A stretch of 64,000 nt of DNA from Roseivirga sp. (GTDB taxonomy: Bacteria > Bacteroidota > Bacteroidia > Cytophagales > Cyclobacteriaceae): the NCBI GenBank assembly GCA_021404565.1, contig JAAWWF010000002.1, positions 248,001 to 312,000 of the forward strand, written 5' to 3'. A program made the position numbers and the translations under genes. Each line of letters begins with the position of its first letter. Position 1 is the stretch's first letter. Positions 19,629 to 42,751 of this stretch are shown here, piece by piece. The notes beneath the pieces were generated by a model. The model had not been told where the DNA came from. It worked only from the letters and a program-made list of their open reading frames with translations, and searched no databases.

Positions 19629-20043
19629 AAATCTTCTCCAGCACAGCGAGCATGCTGTTTTCGGTTTTGATGTCAAACTCTACTTCATCTGTATCACCCA
19701 TGTATCGTATTCTGGGGCAGAATTGAGGATCGAAGAGCGCCACAACCTTTCCATCTGCCTCCAGGGCATAAGCAGGTGCCATTAAACACCTTCTTGATAC
19801 TGGCAAATAATTGCTCTTGTCCAGTATGACTTTGATTAAATCTTTTTTATCCGCTCCGTACAGCAGAACCGAGCTAACAACTTCTCTTTCAGCAATAATA
19901 GCAGCATCATTACCTGTTACGGGGCCAAGTTTATGCAGCGTGAGCTCATCGACTTTTTTAAGAGCACCAAAATCCTGTACATCCTGGCAGCCTGCTGCAG
20001 TGATGCTCATAATCAGCATTATTTTAAAGAAGTTGAGCATCAC
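19615..20043 (-). CDS. Small lipoprotein of the caspase unit
   Basis: The protein has 142 residues. The lipobox MSITAAGC gives a lipidated Cys19. The mature part is mixed alpha/beta (VDELTLHKLGPVTGNDAAII, EVVSSVLLYGADKKDLIKVI) with two cysteines in RRCLMAPAYAL and PQFCPRIRY that could pair. No family was recognised. Its start shares one base with the end of the caspase gene (20043), so it is likely co-translated and membrane-anchored next to the exported caspase-like protein. Confidence 0.75.
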   Translation of the reverse strand: MMLNFFKIMLIMSITAAGCQDVQDFGALKKVDELTLHKLGPVTGNDAAIIAEREVVSSVLLYGADKKDLIKVILDKSNYLPVSRRCLMAPAYALEADGKVVALFDPQFCPRIRYMGDTDEVEFDIKTENSMLAVLEKIYADR

Positions 20044-21362
20044 TAATATTTAATGTTTGATCTGTTGAAGCCACTTTGACCTCTTTGTCCGTTTTGATTC
20101 ACCAGGCCCTGCGTATTGAGGTTGGCATTGCGATATGCCCGGCCGAAAAGACTCAGCCAATCAGCATCAGAAGCTGAAACGGCACTGGCCTCCTTGATCA
20201 TGGATTCTATAAAAGCATGCGTAAACTGTCCGTTTCCCATGGTTCCATCGGGGTTATTCATGCAATACGACCATTCTCCCTTTTGGGAGGAGGTAGAGAC
20301 CAGGAAACCACTGGATTGCAGAAACAGTTTGCTCAGCTTGGTATTATCGAAGAGGTAACCCGATTTAAAGGGGAGTGCCTCTCTGCGCCCAACTGCAGCC
20401 CGGGATTCCGGTATGGAATTACACATATCTCCAATGATCATAGTCAGGCGGGCGTTTTTATCCCTTATTTCATAGTACATGTCTTCAAGGCTCAGGTCAA
20501 CTCCATCCAGCGCCATGCTTGGAAACTCGCTGTCTTTCCCCGGGTCATTATAGCCATGACCTGAATAATAATAGATGATGATGTCATTGGGAGAATTGTT
20601 AATGCGATTCAGGTTGGTAAGAATGGAATCCCTGTTGAAACCATTGCCGGAAAACTGGTATTCCTTAATTTCTATTCCCAGTTCTCTTGATATTTTCGTA
20701 AAGGTGGTGGTTACATCCCGCTGATCCTGTGCTGTGCTTTTGCCAATACTTCGATCCTCAACATCTGCTACCATTACCAGGTGCATCACGGCTCTTTCGG
20801 GTTGTGTTACCGGATCGGGTTCTATAATTACAGGGTCTGGTTCAACTGTATTTACAAGCCCCAGATAACTGTTATACTCAGGCTCATGCGCATCGAAGAA
20901 GTTGAATATATATTGCTGAGTGAAATCAGTCTGAGGGTCTAAGGGGCGATAGGAGGCTTCAACGGGCTCGCTGTCATCACTGTCGACATCGGAATCGTCC
21001 ATGGTGTAGAGATACTCGAATTCATTGTTCTCATTCAGATTGGTGAATATGAAGTTGTCAGCAATATAGCTGGATGGGCTGTTGTCTGAGGAGTAAACCA
21101 CTTCGGCATCATGACCATCGAAAACAAAGTAACGAACGCCATTATCGTCTGTTTCAATCGAACCATCGCAGCTGTACTTGGCCACACGGTAGATGTTGTT
21201 GGAGTCAGTGTATTTAACCCTGACTTCTATCTGGCTTTCGTCATAGTAGACCACCAGAGCCGTATAGTCCAGGTCAGATTTCCACTTTATTTCATAAAAG
21301 CTTTGTGCTTTTAAGTTAACACAAAGTGTCACAAAGAATATGACCACGAACAGACGTTTCAT
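20043..21362 (-). CDS. Exported caspase-fold (peptidase C14) protein
   Basis: The protein has 439 residues with a signal peptide (MKRLFVVIFFVTLCVNLKAQ). The N-terminal 140 residues are beta-rich and Asp-rich, followed by a Pro/Asp linker (VEPDPVIIEPDPVTQPERA, about 172-190) and a caspase-like domain (about 190-435). The catalytic His is H269 in YYYSGHGYNDPG and the catalytic Cys is C314 in IIGDMCNS; the preceding Asp and the C-terminal GNGQFTHAF are also typical. The dyad is intact. It heads a four-gene unit with three lipoproteins. Secreted orthocaspase-like proteins cleave after basic residues in known cases; the substrate here is unknown. Confidence 0.88.
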   Translation of the reverse strand: MKRLFVVIFFVTLCVNLKAQSFYEIKWKSDLDYTALVVYYDESQIEVRVKYTDSNNIYRVAKYSCDGSIETDDNGVRYFVFDGHDAEVVYSSDNSPSSYIADNFIFTNLNENNEFEYLYTMDDSDVDSDDSEPVEASYRPLDPQTDFTQQYIFNFFDAHEPEYNSYLGLVNTVEPDPVIIEPDPVTQPERAVMHLVMVADVEDRSIGKSTAQDQRDVTTTFTKISRELGIEIKEYQFSGNGFNRDSILTNLNRINNSPNDIIIYYYSGHGYNDPGKDSEFPSMALDGVDLSLEDMYYEIRDKNARLTMIIGDMCNSIPESRAAVGRREALPFKSGYLFDNTKLSKLFLQSSGFLVSTSSQKGEWSYCMNNPDGTMGNGQFTHAFIESMIKEASAVSASDADWLSLFGRAYRNANLNTQGLVNQNGQRGQSGFNRSNIKY

Positions 21363-21535: not shown

Positions 21536-22822
21536 TTATCTTTCGTTCAAAGGAACATAAGTACGATCGTTGGCACCCGTATATACCTGGCGTGGACGAC
21601 CGATGGGTTCTTTGTTCTCTCTCATTTCTTTCCACTGAGCAATCCAGCCTGGTAGACGACCTAAGGCAAACATCACGGTGAACATATCGGTTGGGATACC
21701 CAATGCTCTGTAAATGATACCAGAGTAGAAGTCTACATTCGGGTAGAGCTTTCTTTCTACAAAGTAAGGATCTCTCAATGCTTCTTCTTCCAGTCCTTTG
21801 GCAATATCCAAGACAGGATCATTGACACCCAGTTTCTCGAGTACATCGTCAGCTGCTTTTTTGATGATTTTCGCTCTTGGATCAAAGTTTTTGTAAACTC
21901 TGTGCCCGAAGCCCATCAAACGGAAAGGATCATTTTTGTCCTTAGCCTTCGCCATCCACTTTTTAGTATCTCCACCATCCGCTTTGATACCTTCTAGCAT
22001 TTCAATTACCGCCTGGTTGGCACCACCGTGAAGTGGTCCCCAAAGGGCATTGATACCAGCAGAAATAGAGGCATACATGCTGGCATGAGAAGAACCAACC
22101 ACACGTACTGTGGCAGTAGAACAGTTCTGCTCGTGATCTGCATGAAGGATCAGCAGTTTGTCCAGGGCATCAGCCACTACGGGGTCAGCCAAGTATTCTT
22201 CAGCAGGTAGGGCGAACATCATTTTCAGGAAGTTGCCTGTGTAATTGAGTTTGTTGTCAGGGTAAATTACCGGCTGACCAATTTTGTTTTTATATGACCA
22301 GGCTGCAAAGGTTGGCATTTTCGCAATCAGGCGAATAATGCTCATATCTACATCTCCGTGAGACCTGTTAGGATCAAGAGACTCAGGGTAGAAGGCAGTC
22401 TGTGCACAAACCAAAGAAGAGAGAACTCCCATTGGGTGAGCTACAGAAGGAAAACCTTCCAAAATCTTTTTCACATCCTCGTGTACCAGGGTATGGTTGG
22501 TAATGCTGCTTGCGAATTCATTGTATTGCTCAGTAGTAGGGAGCTCACCGTAAATCAACAGGTATGATACTTCCAGGAAATTCGACTTTTCAGCCAGTTC
22601 TTCAATCGTGTAACCTCTGTAGCGGAGTATTCCTTTTTCTCCATCAAGGAAGGTGATGGCACTTTGAGTCGAACCGGTATTCTTAAATCCGGGATCAATC
22701 GTGATGATGCCACTTGAACCTCTCAATTTGGAGATATCAATGGCCTTTTCACTTTCACTTCCCTCTATCACCGGAAGTTCCAGTGATTTACCGTCAACTA
22801 TAATCTGAGCAGTATCTGACAT
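21536..22822 (-). CDS. gltA: Citrate synthase
   Basis: It condenses oxaloacetate and acetyl-CoA to citrate in the TCA cycle, in the cytoplasm. At 428 residues it has the usual length of the hexameric type. Visible motifs include LRYRGYTIEELAEKS, the CoA-site region ANQAVIEMLEGI, the catalytic block LMGFGHRVYKNFDPRA, and the end PIGRPRQVYTGAN. The N-terminal beta-strand domain (IIVDGKSLELPVIEGSE) is also family-typical. A terminator and an upstream gap of 308 bp show that it is monocistronic. Confidence 0.97.
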   Translation of the reverse strand: MSDTAQIIVDGKSLELPVIEGSESEKAIDISKLRGSSGIITIDPGFKNTGSTQSAITFLDGEKGILRYRGYTIEELAEKSNFLEVSYLLIYGELPTTEQYNEFASSITNHTLVHEDVKKILEGFPSVAHPMGVLSSLVCAQTAFYPESLDPNRSHGDVDMSIIRLIAKMPTFAAWSYKNKIGQPVIYPDNKLNYTGNFLKMMFALPAEEYLADPVVADALDKLLILHADHEQNCSTATVRVVGSSHASMYASISAGINALWGPLHGGANQAVIEMLEGIKADGGDTKKWMAKAKDKNDPFRLMGFGHRVYKNFDPRAKIIKKAADDVLEKLGVNDPVLDIAKGLEEEALRDPYFVERKLYPNVDFYSGIIYRALGIPTDMFTVMFALGRLPGWIAQWKEMRENKEPIGRPRQVYTGANDRTYVPLNER

Positions 22823-25199: not shown

Positions 25200-27203
25200 A
25201 TGATAAGAATTGATACGAAAATATATGTACTTGTATTGGTTATGCTTACCGGGATGCTCCCATACCGGGCCTATAGCCAACTAACGAGTGGAATAAACTA
25301 CCAGGCCATGGCCCTGGATTCCACTGGAGTGGTCATTAAAAACCAACTTGTGAGATTACGTTTTGGTATAGTAGAATTAAGTACCAGTGGCTCAGTTATT
25401 TTTCAGGAATCTCATTTGACAACGACTGATGATCAGGGAATCTTTTCACTACAGATTGGCAATGGCACTGCTGAGGTCAATAGCCTGGATTCCGTCAATT
25501 GGCAGAACCAGCCGGTATATTTAAAAGTAGAAATGGACGAGGCAGGTGGGACTAACTACACTCTTATTGGCTTTGTAGAGTTTGCGAGTGTGCCCTATGC
25601 GTTTCATGCTGCTTATGGAGCTGATGAGGACGCTGATCCTAACAACGAACTGCAGCAACTCTCTCTGAACGGAGATACCCTTAGTATATCAGGTGGTAAT
25701 GCACTGAGACTACCTCCTTACGATTTGGGTAGCCATATCGCCTCTCAGAACCTCCAACTGCGCTCATTCTGGCTTTCTGGAGATGGTGATGATGAGGGAC
25801 TTAAAATTGATGCTGCTGGAACTGTGAGTACCGGAGGGAATATTCAGATCCAGGGAATCAGTACACTCTTCTCAGATCATAGAGGTAATTTGGGTTTCAG
25901 CCAGGCACTGGATACTAATACTGTAGCAGAGGAAAACGTACTTATAGGTATAGAAAGTGGTAATCGATTGATGACTGGTATTAGAAATACCTTTTTAGGC
26001 TATCGCTCAGGTCAAAATCTAACTACCGGCAATAGCAACGTTTTTTTGGGTACAAAGGCTGGTAGAGTGAATACGACTGGTAGTAGTAATATTGTCATTG
26101 GTCTAAGGGCTGGGGAATTAAATGAAACAGGGTCTTACAACACACTCTTAGGTGATCAGGCAGGAAACAAGTTAAAGGGTTCATACAATACGTTTCTGGG
26201 CTCATCTGCAGGGTCATCTCTTCAAAGTGGATTGGGTAACGTATTTCTTGGAACAAGTGCAGGATTGAGATCTGAGGCGGGAAATCTGAACGTTTTTCTG
26301 GGTGCCCGGGCAGGTTTTAGCGAGATGGGCTCAGAACGGCTTTATATTGAAAATTCTGACTCGGTTAGTCCCCTTATCTATGGAGAGTTTGACAATGATT
26401 TGGTCAGAGTCAACGGAGACTTGGATGTAACTGGAGAAATTACAATAGGAGGTAATGAAATTGATCGTGATAGTACCAATGAGTTACAAATCCTGACCAT
26501 TTCTAAAGACACTATATTCCTGTCTAATGGAGGTTATGCGATTCTTCCGGGGGATGACTTTGGAAGTCACGTAGCCGAGACAAACTTAGACTTGAATGGT
26601 AACTGGGTATCAGGTGATGGTGATGATGAAGGGGTATATATTGATAGTTCAGGTCAGGTTGGAATTGGTAAAATCATACCTCAGGCGAAACTTGATGTGA
26701 GTGGAAATGTGGCTGTGAACGGAGTGGAAGTAATTAACAGCTCAGGCCAATGGGTAGGACCTGCACAAGCTTCCTCAGGCGTACCTTCAGGTGCCATAGT
26801 TATGTGGTCTGGAAGTGCTGCTGCTATTCCTGCAGGATGGGCGCTTTGTGATGGAACAAATAGCACACCTGATTTGAGAGGTCGGTTTATCGTTGGCTTA
26901 GACCCCAGTGACCCTGAATATGATACGATAGGGGAGACCGGAGGGCAAAAAGAGGTTACCCTGACTACCAGTGAAATACCAAGCCATAGTCATGGTAATA
27001 GGGTCAATACAGGATATGGTGGTTCTCAGAGTGCAGCGAATACCTATCCGGCCGGAAGAACTTATGCAGCCAGTGCGTATAGAAGCTTAAGAAACCCATC
27101 GACAAATTATACAAACACTAATGAAATTGTAGCTACAGGCGGTGGGCAGGCGCATGAGAACAGGCCGCCCTATTTTGCATTGGCATTTATCATTAAACAG
27201 TAG
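25200..27203 (+). CDS. Repeat-rich surface protein with phage tail-collar domain
   Basis: The protein has 667 residues with a signal peptide (VLVLVMLTGMLPYRAYS). In order it has a beta domain (about 25-140), a GDGDDEG-containing motif block (about 175-215), eight 16-17-residue repeats of NxFLGxxAG type (about 246-380), a second GDGDDEG block and a tail-collar domain (about 530-667: GAIVMWSGSAAAIPAGWALC, DLRGRFIVG, HSHG, GGGQAHENRPPYFALAFI). Such proteins fold as trimeric fibres in phage and in Bacteroidota adhesins. It has no T9SS signal of its own and lies 3 bp before a T9SS-type gene. A role in surface binding is inferred. Confidence 0.85.
   Translation: MIRIDTKIYVLVLVMLTGMLPYRAYSQLTSGINYQAMALDSTGVVIKNQLVRLRFGIVELSTSGSVIFQESHLTTTDDQGIFSLQIGNGTAEVNSLDSVNWQNQPVYLKVEMDEAGGTNYTLIGFVEFASVPYAFHAAYGADEDADPNNELQQLSLNGDTLSISGGNALRLPPYDLGSHIASQNLQLRSFWLSGDGDDEGLKIDAAGTVSTGGNIQIQGISTLFSDHRGNLGFSQALDTNTVAEENVLIGIESGNRLMTGIRNTFLGYRSGQNLTTGNSNVFLGTKAGRVNTTGSSNIVIGLRAGELNETGSYNTLLGDQAGNKLKGSYNTFLGSSAGSSLQSGLGNVFLGTSAGLRSEAGNLNVFLGARAGFSEMGSERLYIENSDSVSPLIYGEFDNDLVRVNGDLDVTGEITIGGNEIDRDSTNELQILTISKDTIFLSNGGYAILPGDDFGSHVAETNLDLNGNWVSGDGDDEGVYIDSSGQVGIGKIIPQAKLDVSGNVAVNGVEVINSSGQWVGPAQASSGVPSGAIVMWSGSAAAIPAGWALCDGTNSTPDLRGRFIVGLDPSDPEYDTIGETGGQKEVTLTTSEIPSHSHGNRVNTGYGGSQSAANTYPAGRTYAASAYRSLRNPSTNYTNTNEIVATGGGQAHENRPPYFALAFIIKQ
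25935..26340 (+). repeat. Eight in-frame coding repeats (NxFLGxxAG)
   Basis: The coding repeats have a period of 48-51 bp (16-17 residues), each with N-[TVI]-[FLI]-[LI]-G-x-x-[AS]-G. They are diverged at DNA level, so they are old rather than freshly duplicated. Confidence 0.8.
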
Positions 27204-28021: not shown

Positions 28022-29155
28022 ATGAGATACTACATCATAGCAGGGGAGGCCTCAGGAGATTTACATGCAGCCAATATGATGAAGCAGCTCAAGCTTCGGG
28101 ACCCCGATGCCTATTTCAGGGTTTGGGGAGGAGACCGGATGCAGGCAGAAGCCGATGAGCTGGCTAAGCATATTCGCGAAACATCCTTTATGGGGGTATT
28201 CGCTGTGGTACGTCATTTGAAAACGATCAAGGCAAATTTCAAGTTCTGCGAAGAGGATTTGATGGCTTTCAGGCCTGATGTATTGATTCTGATCGACAAT
28301 TCAGGCTTCAATCTACGGATAGCCAAATTCGTAAAGAACTCAACACTCTCCACGCGTATTTTCTACTATATCCTACCACAAGCCTGGGCCTGGAAGCGAA
28401 AGCGGGTACACACCATTCAGGGCTGGACTGACAGAAGATTTGCTATTCTACCCTTTGAACAGGTCTTTTACAAATCCTATGGCTATGAACTTGACTATGT
28501 TGGACACCCCATTTTGGACTCAATGGCTCAGCGAAAGGCCGGGCTTATGGATATCGGGAGTCTGCGAAGCCAGTATGGACTGTCGGATAAACCCATCATT
28601 GCCCTTTTACCAGGAAGTCGCAAGCGGGAGATCAGGACCAAGCTGCCAAAAATGCTCCAGGTTGTGAATCATTTTCCGGATCATCAATTTCTCATTGCCG
28701 GATCTGAAACCATTGATATAAGTCTGTATGATCAGTACACACTTGGCAACGTAAAAGTTATATTTGGCAAGACTTATGATATACTGAGTCATGCCTCCGC
28801 AGCTTTAGTAACCTCCGGTACGGCTACCCTGGAAACAGCCCTTTTCAGAGTACCACAAGTGGTCTGTTACAAACCGGGCTTTGTTACATTTCACCTGCTG
28901 AAACACATCATCAGCATAAAGTACATCTGTATGGTCAACCTGATACTTGACAGACTGGCTGTACAGGAGTTGGTGGAAGGTGACCTTAACGAAAAACGGA
29001 TGGTCCGCGAGCTTCAGGCACTGCTGGAGCCCGATAATCGTAAACGCATATTGGCAGACTACGATGAGCTGGAATCTAAGCTGGGTGGTGAAGGCGCATC
29101 AGAAAGAGTAGCACAGCTTATGATTGAGGACTTGAAGGTTCATAAAAAAGACTGA
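28022..29155 (+). CDS. lpxB: Lipid-A-disaccharide synthase
   Basis: It joins UDP-2,3-diacylglucosamine and lipid X to the lipid A disaccharide in LPS biosynthesis, as a peripheral inner-membrane enzyme. At 377 residues it has the usual length. The N-terminal motif MRYYIIAGEASGDLHAANMM, the FRVWGGDRMQAE block, DNSGFNLRIAKF, YYILPQAWAWKRKR, ALLPGSRKREI and the donor-site ALVTSGTATLETALF, VVCYKPG are all classical. It stands alone, before the CNB kinase gene with a gap of 79 bp to its ATG. Confidence 0.97.
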   Translation: MRYYIIAGEASGDLHAANMMKQLKLRDPDAYFRVWGGDRMQAEADELAKHIRETSFMGVFAVVRHLKTIKANFKFCEEDLMAFRPDVLILIDNSGFNLRIAKFVKNSTLSTRIFYYILPQAWAWKRKRVHTIQGWTDRRFAILPFEQVFYKSYGYELDYVGHPILDSMAQRKAGLMDIGSLRSQYGLSDKPIIALLPGSRKREIRTKLPKMLQVVNHFPDHQFLIAGSETIDISLYDQYTLGNVKVIFGKTYDILSHASAALVTSGTATLETALFRVPQVVCYKPGFVTFHLLKHIISIKYICMVNLILDRLAVQELVEGDLNEKRMVRELQALLEPDNRKRILADYDELESKLGGEGASERVAQLMIEDLKVHKKD

Positions 29156-29160
29156 TCAGC

Positions 29161-29190
29161 TTGAATTAATTCAATCGCAGGGGATTGAAT
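29161..29190. promoter_or_regulatory. Overlapping palindromes upstream of the CNB-kinase gene
   Basis: TTGAATTAATTCAA (29161-29174) is a perfect palindrome. ATTCAATC (29169-29176) pairs with GATTGAAT (29183-29190), so three ATTGAAT-like half-sites lie within 30 bp. TACTTTCA (29214) is a weak -7 match just downstream. An operator is plausible, but no factor is known. Confidence 0.35.
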
Positions 29191-29234
29191 TCTCTCCAAA
29201 GAAACCAAACTTGTACTTTCACAGTTTTCAAGTC

Positions 29235-30650
29235 ATGGACAAGACAGAATTAGTCGATCAGATAGTCGCCTTTCCGGTATTGGCAGAAGTACCCAGAGCG
29301 CAAATAGAGTGGGTGATAGAACGGGGTGAACTGGTTGAATTGTCGGCAGGCGAGGTGTTTTTTAAGCGGGGTGACCCGATAGATAAGCTCATCATCGTGT
29401 TGGAAGGTATAACGGCCTTTCGTATGGTACAAAACGGGGAATATAAGCTCCTGGGCCAGATGAAGGGGGGAGATATTTCGGGAGCACTTCCCTACAGCAG
29501 AGCCCAGTCCTCTTCTGCTGAGGGGGTAGTTGAGACTGATACGAAAATGTTCATTCTTAAGAAAGGTCATTTCCGTGATTTGATCTGCGAATGCCATGAG
29601 TTTGCTGAGGTCCTGGTGCATCTGATGACCGACAGGGTAAGAGATTCTACGCGAAGGGCTCAGCAGAACGAGAAATTGATGGCCCTGGGTAAAATTTCCG
29701 CAGGACTGGCTCATGAGCTGAATAACCCGGCATCTGCCATAGTAAGAAGCTCAGAACTGCTTCAAAAGCACCTGGGTACTGTGCCGGATGACTTTAAAAA
29801 GGTCACCTCCCTTAAAATGACCGATGCCGAGGTCGACTTTGTGAATGATCTGCTCTATTCCAAGATTCAAAATGGCGTTGATAAAGCAGAGTCTTTGATG
29901 GAGCGTACCACACGGGAAGATGAACTCACCGACTGGCTGGAAGATAATGGGTTCGGTGACTGTTATATGCTGAGCGAGACCCTGGCAGAGTATGGTTTTT
30001 GCGCCCGAGATTTGCAGTCAATTGCAGATCATGTTTCTGCCGAGTCATTTGCACCTGTGCTGGAATGGGGTGAAAGTATGCTGACTACTGAAAAGATGGT
30101 AGGCGAAATAAGAGAAGCATCCGACCGTATTTCCAAACTCGTCACCTCTGTAAAAAGCTACTCGCACATGGACAGGGCAGGTGATCAGGAGCCTACCAAT
30201 GTACATGTGGGTATTCACAATACGCTAACCATTCTGAATCACAAGCTGAAGAAAAACAAGGTGACACTGGTTGAAGAACTTGCTACGGACTTGCCTGAGA
30301 TCAGTGCGGCTCCCGGAGAACTGAATCAGGTATGGACCAATGTAATAGACAATGCTCTTGATGCCATGGAGGATGGCGGTACATTGACGGTCGTTACCCA
30401 AAAGATCGGTTCCAACGTGAACGTTCAGATCTCAGACTCGGGTCCTGGTATTCCTCCTGAGGTACAAAGCCGCATATTTGAGCCCTTTTTTACTACGAAA
30501 GACATTGGAAAAGGTACAGGCATGGGCCTTGAGGTGGTCCAGAAGATAGTGGAGGCCCATAAGGGTACTATCAAGCTGACCTCAGAACCTGGCAATACCA
30601 ATTTTGAATTCTGTTTTCCCATAAACACAAAAGGAAACCCAGATGAGTAA
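29235..30650 (+). CDS. CNB-domain sensor histidine kinase
   Basis: The protein has 471 residues. A cyclic-nucleotide-binding-type domain (about 10-130; FPVLAEVP, SAGEVFFKRGD) is followed by a short linker, a HisKA-type helix with H160 in KISAGLAHELNNPASAI, a long middle region and an HATPase (about 330-471; WTNVIDNALDAMEDGG, SDSGPGIPPEV, TKDIGKGTGMGLEVV). The CNB pocket has GGDISGALPYSRAQ in place of the usual phosphate-binding FGE...RT, so it probably does not bind cAMP in the classical way. The C-terminus overlaps the next gene by 8 bp. It is the cognate kinase for that fused regulator. Confidence 0.92.
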   Translation: MDKTELVDQIVAFPVLAEVPRAQIEWVIERGELVELSAGEVFFKRGDPIDKLIIVLEGITAFRMVQNGEYKLLGQMKGGDISGALPYSRAQSSSAEGVVETDTKMFILKKGHFRDLICECHEFAEVLVHLMTDRVRDSTRRAQQNEKLMALGKISAGLAHELNNPASAIVRSSELLQKHLGTVPDDFKKVTSLKMTDAEVDFVNDLLYSKIQNGVDKAESLMERTTREDELTDWLEDNGFGDCYMLSETLAEYGFCARDLQSIADHVSAESFAPVLEWGESMLTTEKMVGEIREASDRISKLVTSVKSYSHMDRAGDQEPTNVHVGIHNTLTILNHKLKKNKVTLVEELATDLPEISAAPGELNQVWTNVIDNALDAMEDGGTLTVVTQKIGSNVNVQISDSGPGIPPEVQSRIFEPFFTTKDIGKGTGMGLEVVQKIVEAHKGTIKLTSEPGNTNFEFCFPINTKGNPDE

Positions 30651-32307
30651 ACAACCCATCATTTTTACGGTAGATGACGATGAGCAGGTGCTGGCGGCTA
30701 TTAGAAGAGATGTGCGCAGAGAGTATCGCAAAGACTATAGAATAATGAGCACTACTTCTGCTCATGAGGCGTTAGATGCCCTTAAAGAGCTAAAGCAAAG
30801 AGGGGAGGATGTGGCCTTGTTCTTATCAGATCAGCGTATGCCCGAAATGAGCGGGGTGGAGTTCCTGGAGCAGGCCAAAGTACTTTATCCGGCTGCTAAG
30901 AGGGTTTTGCTCACCGCTTACTCCGATATTGAGGCTGCCATTAAGGCCATCAATGATGTACAGCTTGATTTTTACCTGAACAAACCCTGGGACCCTCCAG
31001 AGGAAAAGCTGTACCCAACACTCAATGACCTGCTCGACCAATGGCAAATCAGTCATATTCCTTCCTTTAAGGGTATCAGACTGATCGGATATCAGTATTC
31101 ACCCAAATCACATGCGATTAAAGACTTTCTGTCTGGTAATCTGATTCCGTATCAATGGCTTGATTATCAGCAAGACGATAAGGCCGGGGAGCTTATGCAA
31201 CTGGCCGGGCTTAATGCTACAGACTTACCAGTGGTGTTTTTTGAAGATGGATCCAGACTGGAGCAACCAAGCCTGTCTGCGATAGGCGAAAAGATAGGTC
31301 TGAAACAAAAAGCAGCCGAAACCATGTATGATGTAGTCATCATCGGGGCAGGACCTGCCGGTATGGCGGCCGCTGTATATGGTGGTTCGGAAGGCTTGAA
31401 AACGCTTTTGATTGAGAAACATTCACCGGGAGGCCAGGCAGGAACCAGCTCCAGAATAGAGAACTACCTAGGGTTTCCCAAGGGACTGTCAGGGGCGGAA
31501 CTTACACAAAGGGCCATTACCCAGGCGAAACGTTTCGGTATAGAATTCCTTTCGCCTAAAAGCGTGACGGGTATTACCACGCAAGACAATTATAAGATTG
31601 TGAGCCTGGAAGATGGGGAGCAGATCAATACAAAAGCGGTAATTATCACCACCGGAGTCCAGTATCGCAAGCTGGAGGCTACCGGAATCAATGACTTTAC
31701 CGGGGCAGGAATTTATTACGGAGCGGCTACTACAGAGGCGAATGCCTGTAGAGGCAAAGACGTATACATAGTAGGAGGAGGGAACTCAGCTGGCCAGGCG
31801 GCTATGTACCTCGCCAACTTTGCCAGAGATGTATATATCGTTATCAGAAAGCCAGACCTGTCGGCCAGCATGAGTCAATACCTGATCGATCAGATTAATG
31901 GTACTGAAAACATACACCTGGCACCACGCTCGGTTATTAAGGAGGCACATGGTACTGAGTACCTGGAATGCGTTACACTGGAGAATATAGATACGGGCCT
32001 GGCTGAAAAGAAAATGGCAGGAGCACTGTTAATTTTCATAGGTGCCAGACCCTATACGGATTGGACAGGAGGAGATATTGTGAAAAACGATAGGGGCTTC
32101 GTCATTACCGGAAAGGACCTGGCCAAATCAGAGGACTTTAAAAAACTCTGGAAGAAACAGCGCGAGCCCTTCCTGCTCGAAAGCAGTACACCAGGTATTA
32201 TGGCAGCGGGCGATGTACGTTCCGGTGCTATGAACCGCGTGGCCTCGGCAGTGGGGGAAGGTGCCATGGCCATTAAATTTGTGCACGAGTACCTGGCCGA
32301 GACTTAA
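30643..32307 (+). CDS. Response regulator fused to a thioredoxin-reductase-like flavoprotein
   Basis: The protein has 554 residues. A receiver domain (1-125; acidic D11-D13, phospho-acceptor D63 in LFLSDQRMPEMSG, K114) is followed by a thioredoxin-fold-like segment (about 142-215; IRLIGYQYSPKSHAIKDFLS, DLPVVFFEDGS) and a FAD/NAD(P) reductase of TrxR type (about 228-552; FAD GAGPAG at 235-240, second dinucleotide motif GGGNSAG at 378-384, and the late GIMAAGDVR). The redox CxxC is absent from the usual place before GGGNSAG (AATTEANACRG), and the glutaredoxin-like CxxC is YSPKS; only two Cys remain in the whole protein. Electron acceptor unknown. It overlaps the upstream kinase gene by 8 bp. 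Confidence 0.92.
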   Translation: MSKQPIIFTVDDDEQVLAAIRRDVRREYRKDYRIMSTTSAHEALDALKELKQRGEDVALFLSDQRMPEMSGVEFLEQAKVLYPAAKRVLLTAYSDIEAAIKAINDVQLDFYLNKPWDPPEEKLYPTLNDLLDQWQISHIPSFKGIRLIGYQYSPKSHAIKDFLSGNLIPYQWLDYQQDDKAGELMQLAGLNATDLPVVFFEDGSRLEQPSLSAIGEKIGLKQKAAETMYDVVIIGAGPAGMAAAVYGGSEGLKTLLIEKHSPGGQAGTSSRIENYLGFPKGLSGAELTQRAITQAKRFGIEFLSPKSVTGITTQDNYKIVSLEDGEQINTKAVIITTGVQYRKLEATGINDFTGAGIYYGAATTEANACRGKDVYIVGGGNSAGQAAMYLANFARDVYIVIRKPDLSASMSQYLIDQINGTENIHLAPRSVIKEAHGTEYLECVTLENIDTGLAEKKMAGALLIFIGARPYTDWTGGDIVKNDRGFVITGKDLAKSEDFKKLWKKQREPFLLESSTPGIMAAGDVRSGAMNRVASAVGEGAMAIKFVHEYLAET

Positions 32308-40675: not shown

Positions 40676-42751
40676 TTATAGATTATCTATATAGACTAAA
40701 TCACCTCCATAGCCTTTGATATAGCCGAGTAGGGCCCAGCTCTCATCGGGTGCCACAGAAAGTGCAATATCCTGCGCGGGTATAGAGCCCCTGAAGGGAT
40801 AATGAGCTTCCAGGCTATCGGTGGACAGGCTTAGGCGGGATATTTCGTCTGGGGTGGTGGTTCTGTTTACAAAGTAGATCGAGTTTTTAGCCACAGTCCA
40901 GTTACCCCAGTCCTGAAAGCTCAATTCGGCTGTAAGTTTTCTCTCTTTTCCAGTCTCCAACTCTTTCTGCCAGATGCCGTCCTGGCGATGCTTTGCATAG
41001 TAGAGCATTTGCCCTTCGGGTGATTCCAGGGCATAATAACCTCCATTTTTAGTTATCTGCACTGCCTTATTCCCATTCAGGGGCTTTCTCCATATCTCCC
41101 AACTGCCACTTCGATCTGAGGTAAAATAGATTGATTCGCCATTGGCAGACCAGGTGGGGGTCATATTGTGAAAATGGCCTTTGGTAAATTGATACTGGTC
41201 CACACCATTGGAATCGATCAGGTAAATGTGCGAATATCCATCAATCTTTGAGTCGAAGGCCAGAACATCACCTTTCGGGGCCCATTTGGGATTGGCCGTA
41301 AAGGACCTGTTGAGTTGAGTCAGCTGCCTCTGGTTGGTTCCGTTACGGTTTGCCGACCATATTTCGTAGTTACCTGATTGATTGGAAGAAAAGAGTATCT
41401 TTTTGCCATTGGCGGAGATATCCGGATGTAACTCCCAGAGGGTAGAGGACTCTGCCAAGGGAGTCACATTTTGCCCTCTTTGATTCAAGTCTATTTTGAC
41501 CAGATCTGTATCTGTTTCCCAGTCTTCTACGACAAGTTTCCCATTTTGAATACTGGGATTTTGATGATTTCTACCAAGCTGTAGCTTGGTGAGTTCACCA
41601 TCATTTGAAATGTCGATGCTCCAAAGACTTACCTGGCCTCCAAAATCGGATGACATAATAAGGGTCTCGTTGTCAGACCAGTCAAATCCGTAAATGGCAC
41701 TTTTGGTCTCGGTGAGCAGTTTTTCTTCTCCACTAGCCAGGTTGAGCAGGTAGAGATCCTGAATACCCTCTGCCAATATTCTTGCAAAAGCCAGTTTTTT
41801 GCCATCAGGGGAGAATTCAGGCGAGCTATCGCCCCAAAAGTTGTCCTTTGGCCTGGTGACTTGGGTACTTGTAGCCATTTCCAATGAATATATAAATACT
41901 GCATGCTGGTTGTTGGTGGTATCTAAATCAATATAGGCCAGCTCAGCGCCATCTGGCGACCAGGACAAGGCAGCTATTTGGGCATTGGCCTCTATCAGGG
42001 TTCTTTCTGCACCTCCATAGGCAGAGATCAGGTTAATAGTCACTTTGCCTTGGTCATTTTTATAATAGGCCAACTGGTTGGCATCAGGAGACCAGCGCGG
42101 TTGCAGATAAATGGCCGTATCACTGGTGATCACCTTGTGTTCCATCCGGTCGAGTGATTTAATGCAGAGGTGATTTTGGTTCTCACCGGGTTTGCGCCAT
42201 ACAAAAGCAACAGCGCTGCCGTCAGGAGATAGGTCGGGGTGAAACTCCCAGCCTTTCATGGCAGTGAGCGGTTTGATATTATAGATTTTAGGCAGGGAAT
42301 TTCCGGCATTACCCGCTGCCAAAAAGGTGATAAGCGCACTTACCAGTAGGAATGCTGTGATAAAGGCATACTTCCATTGATGGACATCGATGCTCACGCT
42401 GGGTATACCCGCTTTGATGGGCCTGGCTTTGGAGGGAGCTTCTCTTACACTGGCAATGAGCCGGTAGCCTCCTTTGGGTATGGTTTCAATAACCCGTGGT
42501 TGGGTTGGTACATCTTTAAAGACACTTCTGAGCTCAGAAATGGCGCGGGTCAGGGCCATATCTACTACCACTGTATCCTTCCATACTGTGGCGAAAAGCT
42601 CATCTCTGCTTACTACCTCAGCTGGCTTTTGTGCCAGAGAGCAAAGTACAGCCATGATCTTTGGTTCAAGCTTCCACTCTTCACCATTCCTGGATATCCG
42701 ATTGATTTCAGGTTGGATCAGCCATTCGTCTATATAGAAGTTTTCCTGCAT
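40676..42751 (-). CDS. Winged-helix / TM / PD40-propeller transcription regulator
   Basis: The protein has 691 residues. An OmpR/CadC-type winged helix (1-105; ISRNGEEWKLEPKIMAVL, RAISELRSVFKD, ETIPKGGYRL) is followed by one membrane helix (127-147) and a TolB/PD40 beta-propeller (about 160-690) with FSPDGKKLAFAR, WSPDGAELAYID, WAPKGDVLAFDS and SPEGQMLYYAKH. This is a membrane-anchored regulator with DNA-binding in the cytoplasm and a propeller sensor in the periplasm, like CadC or ToxR in topology. Targets unknown; the S9 peptidase gene is divergent from it 298 bp away. Confidence 0.9.
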   Translation of the reverse strand: MQENFYIDEWLIQPEINRISRNGEEWKLEPKIMAVLCSLAQKPAEVVSRDELFATVWKDTVVVDMALTRAISELRSVFKDVPTQPRVIETIPKGGYRLIASVREAPSKARPIKAGIPSVSIDVHQWKYAFITAFLLVSALITFLAAGNAGNSLPKIYNIKPLTAMKGWEFHPDLSPDGSAVAFVWRKPGENQNHLCIKSLDRMEHKVITSDTAIYLQPRWSPDANQLAYYKNDQGKVTINLISAYGGAERTLIEANAQIAALSWSPDGAELAYIDLDTTNNQHAVFIYSLEMATSTQVTRPKDNFWGDSSPEFSPDGKKLAFARILAEGIQDLYLLNLASGEEKLLTETKSAIYGFDWSDNETLIMSSDFGGQVSLWSIDISNDGELTKLQLGRNHQNPSIQNGKLVVEDWETDTDLVKIDLNQRGQNVTPLAESSTLWELHPDISANGKKILFSSNQSGNYEIWSANRNGTNQRQLTQLNRSFTANPKWAPKGDVLAFDSKIDGYSHIYLIDSNGVDQYQFTKGHFHNMTPTWSANGESIYFTSDRSGSWEIWRKPLNGNKAVQITKNGGYYALESPEGQMLYYAKHRQDGIWQKELETGKERKLTAELSFQDWGNWTVAKNSIYFVNRTTTPDEISRLSLSTDSLEAHYPFRGSIPAQDIALSVAPDESWALLGYIKGYGGDLVYIDNL

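Follow-up and report, generated by a model that had tools for sequence, protein, structure and literature searches.

What does a response regulator do when its output module is built like thioredoxin reductase (TrxR) and the redox cysteines are missing? This question is raised by a gene pair in a 64,000-nucleotide stretch of a Roseivirga sp. genome (assembly GCA_021404565.1, contig JAAWWF010000002.1, positions 248,001 to 312,000; "the window" in the following, GC content 44.7%). Here the gene of a histidine kinase with a cyclic nucleotide-binding (CNB) domain runs by 8 bp (30643-30650, reading ATGAGTAA) into that of a regulator composed of a receiver, a glutaredoxin-like domain and a TrxR-like part (Table 1). 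The answer that we favour, and hold to be fairly probable, is that the two form a conserved two-component system, in which the CNB kinase would address the receiver of a TrxR-fold flavoprotein that uses flavin adenine dinucleotide (FAD) and NAD(P)H and works without cysteine chemistry of its own. The domain composition, the loss of the redox cysteines throughout the family, the conserved pairing of the genes and the exchange of kinase and receiver for a fused CNB domain are established here.

An earlier note on this DNA, made from the letters alone, had described the overlap of a CNB kinase with the regulator, an intact receiver Asp63 and two intact dinucleotide sites, a thioredoxin-fold-like module, and the absence of the CxxC motifs of both TrxR and glutaredoxin; all of these points were borne out. 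The kinase passes the CNB profile (PF00027, 41.9 bits, cut-off 27.5) and has a HATPase_c domain of 89.5 bits, and its HisKA domain scores just below the cut-off (26.6 versus 26.9 bits). The presumed phospho-acceptor His160 is kept in at least 90% of the 46 family kinases aligned, so that both the histidine and the ATPase domain expected of a histidine kinase are present. Since it has no strongly hydrophobic stretch of 19 residues (best mean 1.22), the kinase is probably soluble. The receiver of the regulator (Response_reg, 54.5 bits) has the phospho-acceptor Asp63, the acidic pair D11 and D12, T91 and K114. The module that follows it is glutaredoxin-like, with 16.0 bits for the window protein against PF00462 (cut-off 22.9) and 27.4 bits for a Nostoc homologue (L053); at its active site, where a glutaredoxin has CxxC or CxxS, it reads SPKS (within YSPKS, 152-156). 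The dinucleotide motifs of the TrxR-like part are intact (GAGPAG at 235, GGGNSAG at 378, and AAGD; Pyr_redox_2, 109.4 bits), and the CAVC of the ordinary TrxB encoded in the same genome aligns onto Ala-Ala-Thr-Thr at 361-364, directly followed by Glu365 where TrxB has Asp. The whole regulator contains two cysteines, C369 and C443, none of them in the receiver.

The earlier note had proposed to check whether the loss is conserved among homologues, and it is. We compared 79 distinct proteins (tblastn above 300 bits among the fetched loci, the window included; duplicate copies merged, the weak loci L004-L010 and L021-L023 excluded, and L065, truncated by a contig end, counted). Bacteroidota and close kin prevail in this set, and Cyanobacteriota, Actinomycetota, Deinococcota and Burkholderiales are represented from plasmids. 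The regulator finds a match at E ≤1e-60 in 53 of 395 Bacteroidota genomes, its own included; a scan of genome contigs gave 13 loci, 10 of them full-length relatives, and 16 of the 89 plasmid records matched were fetched. By architecture, 67 members are of the receiver type, 8 have a CNB domain in its place and 4 lack both. A cysteine at either position of the TrxR CxxC occurs in 0/79 members, and a CxxC in the glutaredoxin-like part likewise in 0/79. A motif moved to another place in the fold, which the earlier note had envisaged, was rejected as an explanation, as the only candidate besides is a CECC in the TrxR-like part of L057, outside the CxxC columns.

Five members have a single cysteine in the combined glutaredoxin-like and TrxR-like region, at columns 330, 515, 369, 448 and 436, the last being the truncated L065; the four complete members therefore cannot form a disulfide within this region. 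Cys369, in the commonest cysteine column, was rejected as a lone catalytic cysteine, since it is present in 50 of the 79 and missing from four of the five one-cysteine members. The family therefore requires no particular cysteine. Despite this loss, Tyr359 (79/79) and Arg402 (78/79) are kept, as are Glu365 (77/79) and a serine at residue 153 (77/79, Asp in the other two); the FAD-motif residues are invariant across 39 aligned members, and at least 10 of the 18 positions of an insertion ahead of AAGD are occupied in every member. The loss of the redox cysteines is thus family-wide, which makes the observation firmer than the first reading of the locus had it, and less of an oddity. In the tree, where the regulator clusters with Roseivirga (Bacteroidota), the 79 members lie on one side of a branch with SH-aLRT 99, with the TrxB and the ferredoxin/flavodoxin NADP reductase (FNR)-like protein of the same genome opposite on very long branches. 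A single origin of the receiver type was not rejected (p-AU 0.835), the constrained tree scoring above the free one.

The genes of kinase and regulator stay together. In a search with a profile built from 46 kinases of the same loci (window included), 64 of the 67 receiver-type members, the window among them, proved to have a same-strand family kinase no more than 6 kb away, in several phyla, and in 58 the distance is at most 400 bp. The kinase precedes the regulator in most Bacteroidota; the regulator comes first in a few, two of which (L087 and L088) have an antiporter/zf-UBP gene between the pair, and in those plasmid members with a nearby kinase that the gene-order comparison covered. As either order occurs, the pairing has outlasted rearrangement. 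Asp63 and Lys114 are each present in 67/67 receiver-type members. No family kinase was detected in the 3 to 10 kb searched per side around the 12 receiver-less members. A fused cNMP_binding domain above the Pfam cut-off is present in 8 of these and missing from the other 4; some of the 12 bear the database name "cyclic nucleotide-binding domain-containing thioredoxin-disulfide reductase". Since kinase and receiver are swapped for a fused CNB domain, the CNB domain is linked to the flavoprotein either within one chain or through a phosphorelay. Of the evidence gathered here, this exchange speaks most strongly for CNB as the input and the flavoprotein as the output, presumably with His-Asp transfer between them in the paired form.

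Two plasmids show unusual arrangements of the pair. On pNK83 of Caballeronia sp. NK8 (L056, 2478-7056) the regulator has a family kinase on either side, and one regulator may have two kinases. On pNe_3 of Nostoc edaphicum (L061, 5800-8094) the regulator is separated from an ATP-binding (kinase-type) gene by one for a bestrophin and one of a transposase family.

Several points weigh against the two-component reading. In three of the 67 receiver-type members no family kinase occurs on the strand of the regulator within 6 kb: L090 has its kinase on the opposite strand, and for L104 and L118 the surrounding DNA examined contains none. The CNB cassette appears non-canonical, so that the ligand may be other than a cyclic nucleotide: the region reads GDISGALPYSR in the window kinase, where G83, L85 and P86 are each shared by 90% or more of the 46 kinases, and mostly G-x-[IV]-x-G-x-LP[YF]SR among Bacteroidota family kinases (alignment read by eye), which seems to depart from the canonical phosphate-binding cassette. 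The one-cysteine counts cover the redox region, with which a receiver cysteine of a relative might form a disulfide, and a separate protein could supply cysteines. Finally, structure predictions were poor (mean pLDDT 65.8 and 60.6) and unfit for geometry; Foldseek matches of these models to TrxR and AhpF (query-length TM-scores 0.21-0.25, among the 50 matches listed) only agree with the sequence match and add nothing on geometry.

The first of these points, together with the many other receivers encoded in the genome, would fit a kinase and a flavoprotein that are mere neighbours, the kinase serving another regulator. We consider this very improbable, given the same-strand pairing in 64/67 members, which spans several phyla and both gene orders, and the absence of a family kinase near all 12 receiver-less members. 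As to the ligand, the genome may make cyclic nucleotides, because seven Guanylate_cyc matches were found in it.

Like low-Mr thioredoxin reductase (TIGR01292) and AhpF, the regulator has FAD and NAD(P)H domains, and as in AhpF a thioredoxin-fold domain stands ahead of the TrxR part, a layout described for AhpF in a passage of PMC8945050. It differs from both in the receiver in front, in the insertion of about 18 residues and in having no CxxC, and its scores are far below the respective cut-offs (220.6 bits versus an equivalog cut-off of 343.45 for TIGR01292, 146.5 versus 502.9 for AhpF).

TrxR-fold proteins without CxxC are an established class, the TrxR-like FNRs, of which solved examples are 3lzw, 6gas and 5twb in the Protein Data Bank (PDB). 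The profile of the family matches such chains, and one FNR-like protein without CxxC (L003) is encoded in the Roseivirga genome itself. Only part of the overall interpretation in the earlier note is supported: the kinase/regulator pair with a TrxR-fold output whose cysteines are lost in register is, and the claim that it falls outside known TrxR-type chemistry is not (nor is the autoregulation discussed below). For TrxR folds that lack the CxxC, FNR-like chemistry is the best precedent. As a special case of the favoured reading, the regulator could itself be an FNR-like reductase, in which phosphorylation would turn on the passage of single electrons from NAD(P)H via FAD to an acceptor (ferredoxin, flavodoxin or iron). 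This is conceivable, if doubtful: the GVDY...E loop of the FNR-like protein aligns with the GIYY...E of the regulator, and ferredoxin-NADP reductase chains are found in the PDB with E 2e-23 to 5e-15; however, TrxRs match far better (best E 1e-58), and the FNR-like protein of the genome stands outside the family on its very long branch, where its placement is unsure. The FNR chains matched (329-360 residues) also differ from the regulator in being too short to hold receiver and glutaredoxin-like domains.

The main rival to redox output is a pure sensor without turnover. In such a pseudoenzyme switch the TrxR-like part would sense the NAD(P)H state by binding FAD and NAD(P)H, and this state and phosphorylation would jointly control docking of a partner. 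The loss of both cysteine pairs in 79/79 members is consistent with it, as is the association of relatives with zf-UBP, which in eukaryotes is a peptide-binding domain. In a survey in which at most 15 first-look candidates were scored per genome, so that counts are lower bounds, zf-UBP exceeded the cut-off in at least 35 of the 395 Bacteroidota genomes; the flavoprotein was present in 32 of these 35 versus 21 of the remaining 360 genomes (Fisher p 1.4e-29, uncorrected for kinship). Among 33 zf-UBP genes in flavoprotein genomes, 23 lie within 10 kb of the flavoprotein gene and 10 do not, and zf-UBP adjoins the flavoprotein in plasmids of Streptomyces, Tsukamurella and Rhodococcus. The domain thus travels with the flavoprotein, incompletely: it was not seen in 21 of the 53 flavoprotein genomes. 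Our Roseivirga genome is one of these, with no PF02148 match among all 52 first-look candidates scored, and a zf-UBP partner was rejected for it. This gap speaks against the switch, as do the near-invariant Glu365, Tyr359 and Arg402, which a mere scaffold would not need, and we regard it as rather unlikely.

Alternatively, the flavoprotein could remain a disulfide reductase by borrowing the cysteines of a separate thioredoxin, DsbA-like or zf-UBP partner. DsbA-like genes are found in six of 57 compared neighbourhoods, one of them that of a receiver-less member (Pfam on one), and trxA precedes the fused-CNB gene, immediately in Streptomyces sp. NBC_01001 and as the second gene upstream in Rhodococcus. 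The DsbA-like neighbours, however, read CPYS or CPFS, not CxxC; no DsbA-like, trxA or zf-UBP gene is beside the window pair; and TrxR chemistry requires the flavin-proximal CxxC, lost in 79/79 members. Borrowing therefore seems improbable to us. At L019 (2739-3293) and five more loci the DsbA-like protein is encoded near antiporter genes, as a second thioredoxin-fold protein there without a full CxxC.

Ion transporter genes are also found in the neighbourhoods of relatives. Kef-type antiporters are grouped in 14 of the 57 neighbourhoods, a comparison in which the open reading frame filter missed the regulator in 5 (GC-rich DNA), and Pfam on three of them gave Na_H_Exchanger and TrkA_N in all three, and a fused zf-UBP in one. 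In 12 genomes picked for an antiporter near the flavoprotein, only 2 to 4 such antiporters occur in each; bestrophin-type proteins are present in three neighbourhoods (Pfam on one). By analogy with the flavoprotein KefF, which serves KefC, one may speculate that the flavoprotein is an ancillary subunit of ion transporters, controlled by phosphorylation and independent of cysteines. In relatives it would bind Kef-type potassium/proton antiporters via zf-UBP modules, so that ion efflux would respond to a nucleotide-type signal and to the NAD(P)H state, and in the zf-UBP-less Roseivirga genome it would have a different target. We rate this as decidedly unlikely. That genome encodes four Kef-type antiporters, none on the contig of the window, and neither an antiporter nor a bestrophin-type gene adjoins the window pair.

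Some of the antiporters deserve mention on their own. Those of L087 (7075-9102), L088 (10768-12801) and L123 (5567-7615), grouped with kinase and regulator, have a C-terminal zf-UBP (profile hits in all three, Pfam on L087 only), and antiporter-related proteins of L124 and L125 have a glutaredoxin-like C-terminal stretch (Pfam on L125).

The family is already present in databases under names that partly imply thioredoxin reductase activity, and the window pair joins a known kind. Public proteins annotated "FAD-dependent oxidoreductase" or with the thioredoxin-disulfide reductase name above have the same CxxC-less core of glutaredoxin-like and TrxR-like domains. The 16 fetched from plasmids under these annotations show 42-56% identity over the matched part, and the receiver-type ones have a family kinase beside or near them. 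In 6 of the 16 the receiver is replaced by CNB (5) or by nothing (1), with no family kinase in the DNA searched. With the CxxC missing, the sequences do not support the activity implied by "thioredoxin-disulfide reductase". Such a system was reportedly predicted in 2011: Burroughs, Iyer and Aravind are said to have placed bacterial ZF-UBP in a "novel cyclic nucleotide-dependent redox signaling system". As in that account, CNB, a TrxR-like flavoprotein and zf-UBP are tied by gene neighbourhood, here in Bacteroidota and actinomycete plasmids, and CNB is linked with the TrxR-like flavoprotein; the genome without zf-UBP and the pair without an adjacent antiporter differ from it. No description of the system was found in the open-licence literature searched, where matches judged by title concerned other TrxR-type proteins or unrelated subjects, and passages of PMC8945050 and PMC4506424 do not describe it.

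Table 1. Features of the kinase-regulator locus, in positions of the window.
Feature	Position	Strand	Basis or remark
LpxB gene	28022-29155		upstream of kinase gene
Perfect 14-bp palindrome, TTGAATTAATTCAA	29161..29174	.	upstream of kinase
CNB-domain histidine kinase, 471 aa from ATG 29235	29235..30650	+	open reading frame list, Pfam, alignment of 46 family kinases (window included)
cNMP_binding domain, aa 34-117	29334..29585	+	Pfam, alignment of 46 kinases
HisKA, aa 151-189	29685..29801	+	Pfam, alignment
Presumed phospho-acceptor His160, within AGLAHELNNPA	29712-29714	+	
HATPase_c, aa 362-463	30318..30623	+	Pfam
Response regulator (receiver, glutaredoxin-like, TrxR-like flavoprotein), 554 aa	30643..32307	+	open reading frame list, Pfam, motifs
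Receiver domain, aa 7-119	30661..30999	+	Pfam Response_reg
Receiver Asp63	30829-30831	+	
Glutaredoxin-like domain, aa 142-219	31066..31299	+	profile, alignment
TrxR-like FAD and NAD(P)H domains, aa 229-551	31327..32295	+	Pfam, NCBI models, PDB sequence matches
TrxR CxxC site, Ala-Ala-Thr-Thr (361-364)	31723..31734	+	alignment
Insertion of about 18 residues (aa 487-504) relative to TrxB of the genome, ahead of AAGD	32101..32154	+	alignment

The kinase reading frame as listed opens at TTG 29211; ATG 29235 is the likelier start. The earlier note had also suggested that palindromes upstream of the kinase might give autoregulation. The palindrome TTGAATTAATTCAA is real and one of 6 gapless palindromes of at least 14 bp in the window. 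It was not found upstream of the kinase in five close relatives (at most 130 bp inspected; 60 bp for L011 and 92 bp for L024, where the locus starts), and autoregulation through it was rejected. No second copy of the regulator exists in the 8.57-Mb assembly (98.38% complete, 81 contigs), whose 22 matches comprise, apart from the regulator itself, the TrxB with CxxC (L002), the FNR-like protein, a further partial match to the flavoprotein part (L004), one more short match and, for the rest, receivers.

Elsewhere in the window, FLG-x-x-AG-type stretches recur (by eye) in a 667-aa protein (25200-27203) whose C-terminus matches the C-terminal domain of phage baseplate Gp10 (34.6 bits), and its gene is followed by that of a 190-aa protein with a C-terminus like that of type IX secretion system substrates (T9SS-like, by eye). 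A caspase-domain protein (20043-21362; Peptidase_C14, 27.7 bits) adjoins a citrate synthase gene (21536-22822), and at 40676-42751 an OmpR-type DNA-binding domain (Trans_reg_C) is fused to a PD40 beta-propeller.

Taken as a two-component system, the pair would work as follows. A ligand at the CNB domain would set the activity of the kinase, and phosphate would pass from His160 to Asp63, as their invariance and the gene pairing suggest. The phosphorylated receiver might then shift the glutaredoxin-like and NAD(P)H domains, allowing NAD(P)H to reduce the flavin; the position of the CxxC would be taken by Glu365 and the YYGAA loop. The reduced flavoprotein could donate electrons to a partner protein, or dock on it, without cysteines. 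The database names of the family include thioredoxin-disulfide reductase, yet the catalytic disulfide is absent from 79/79 members. If the flavoprotein is active, it would be a response regulator with phosphorylation-set flavin redox chemistry as its output, probably a rare type among response regulators, and a testable target would be at hand in the zf-UBP and Kef-type proteins encoded next to its relatives.

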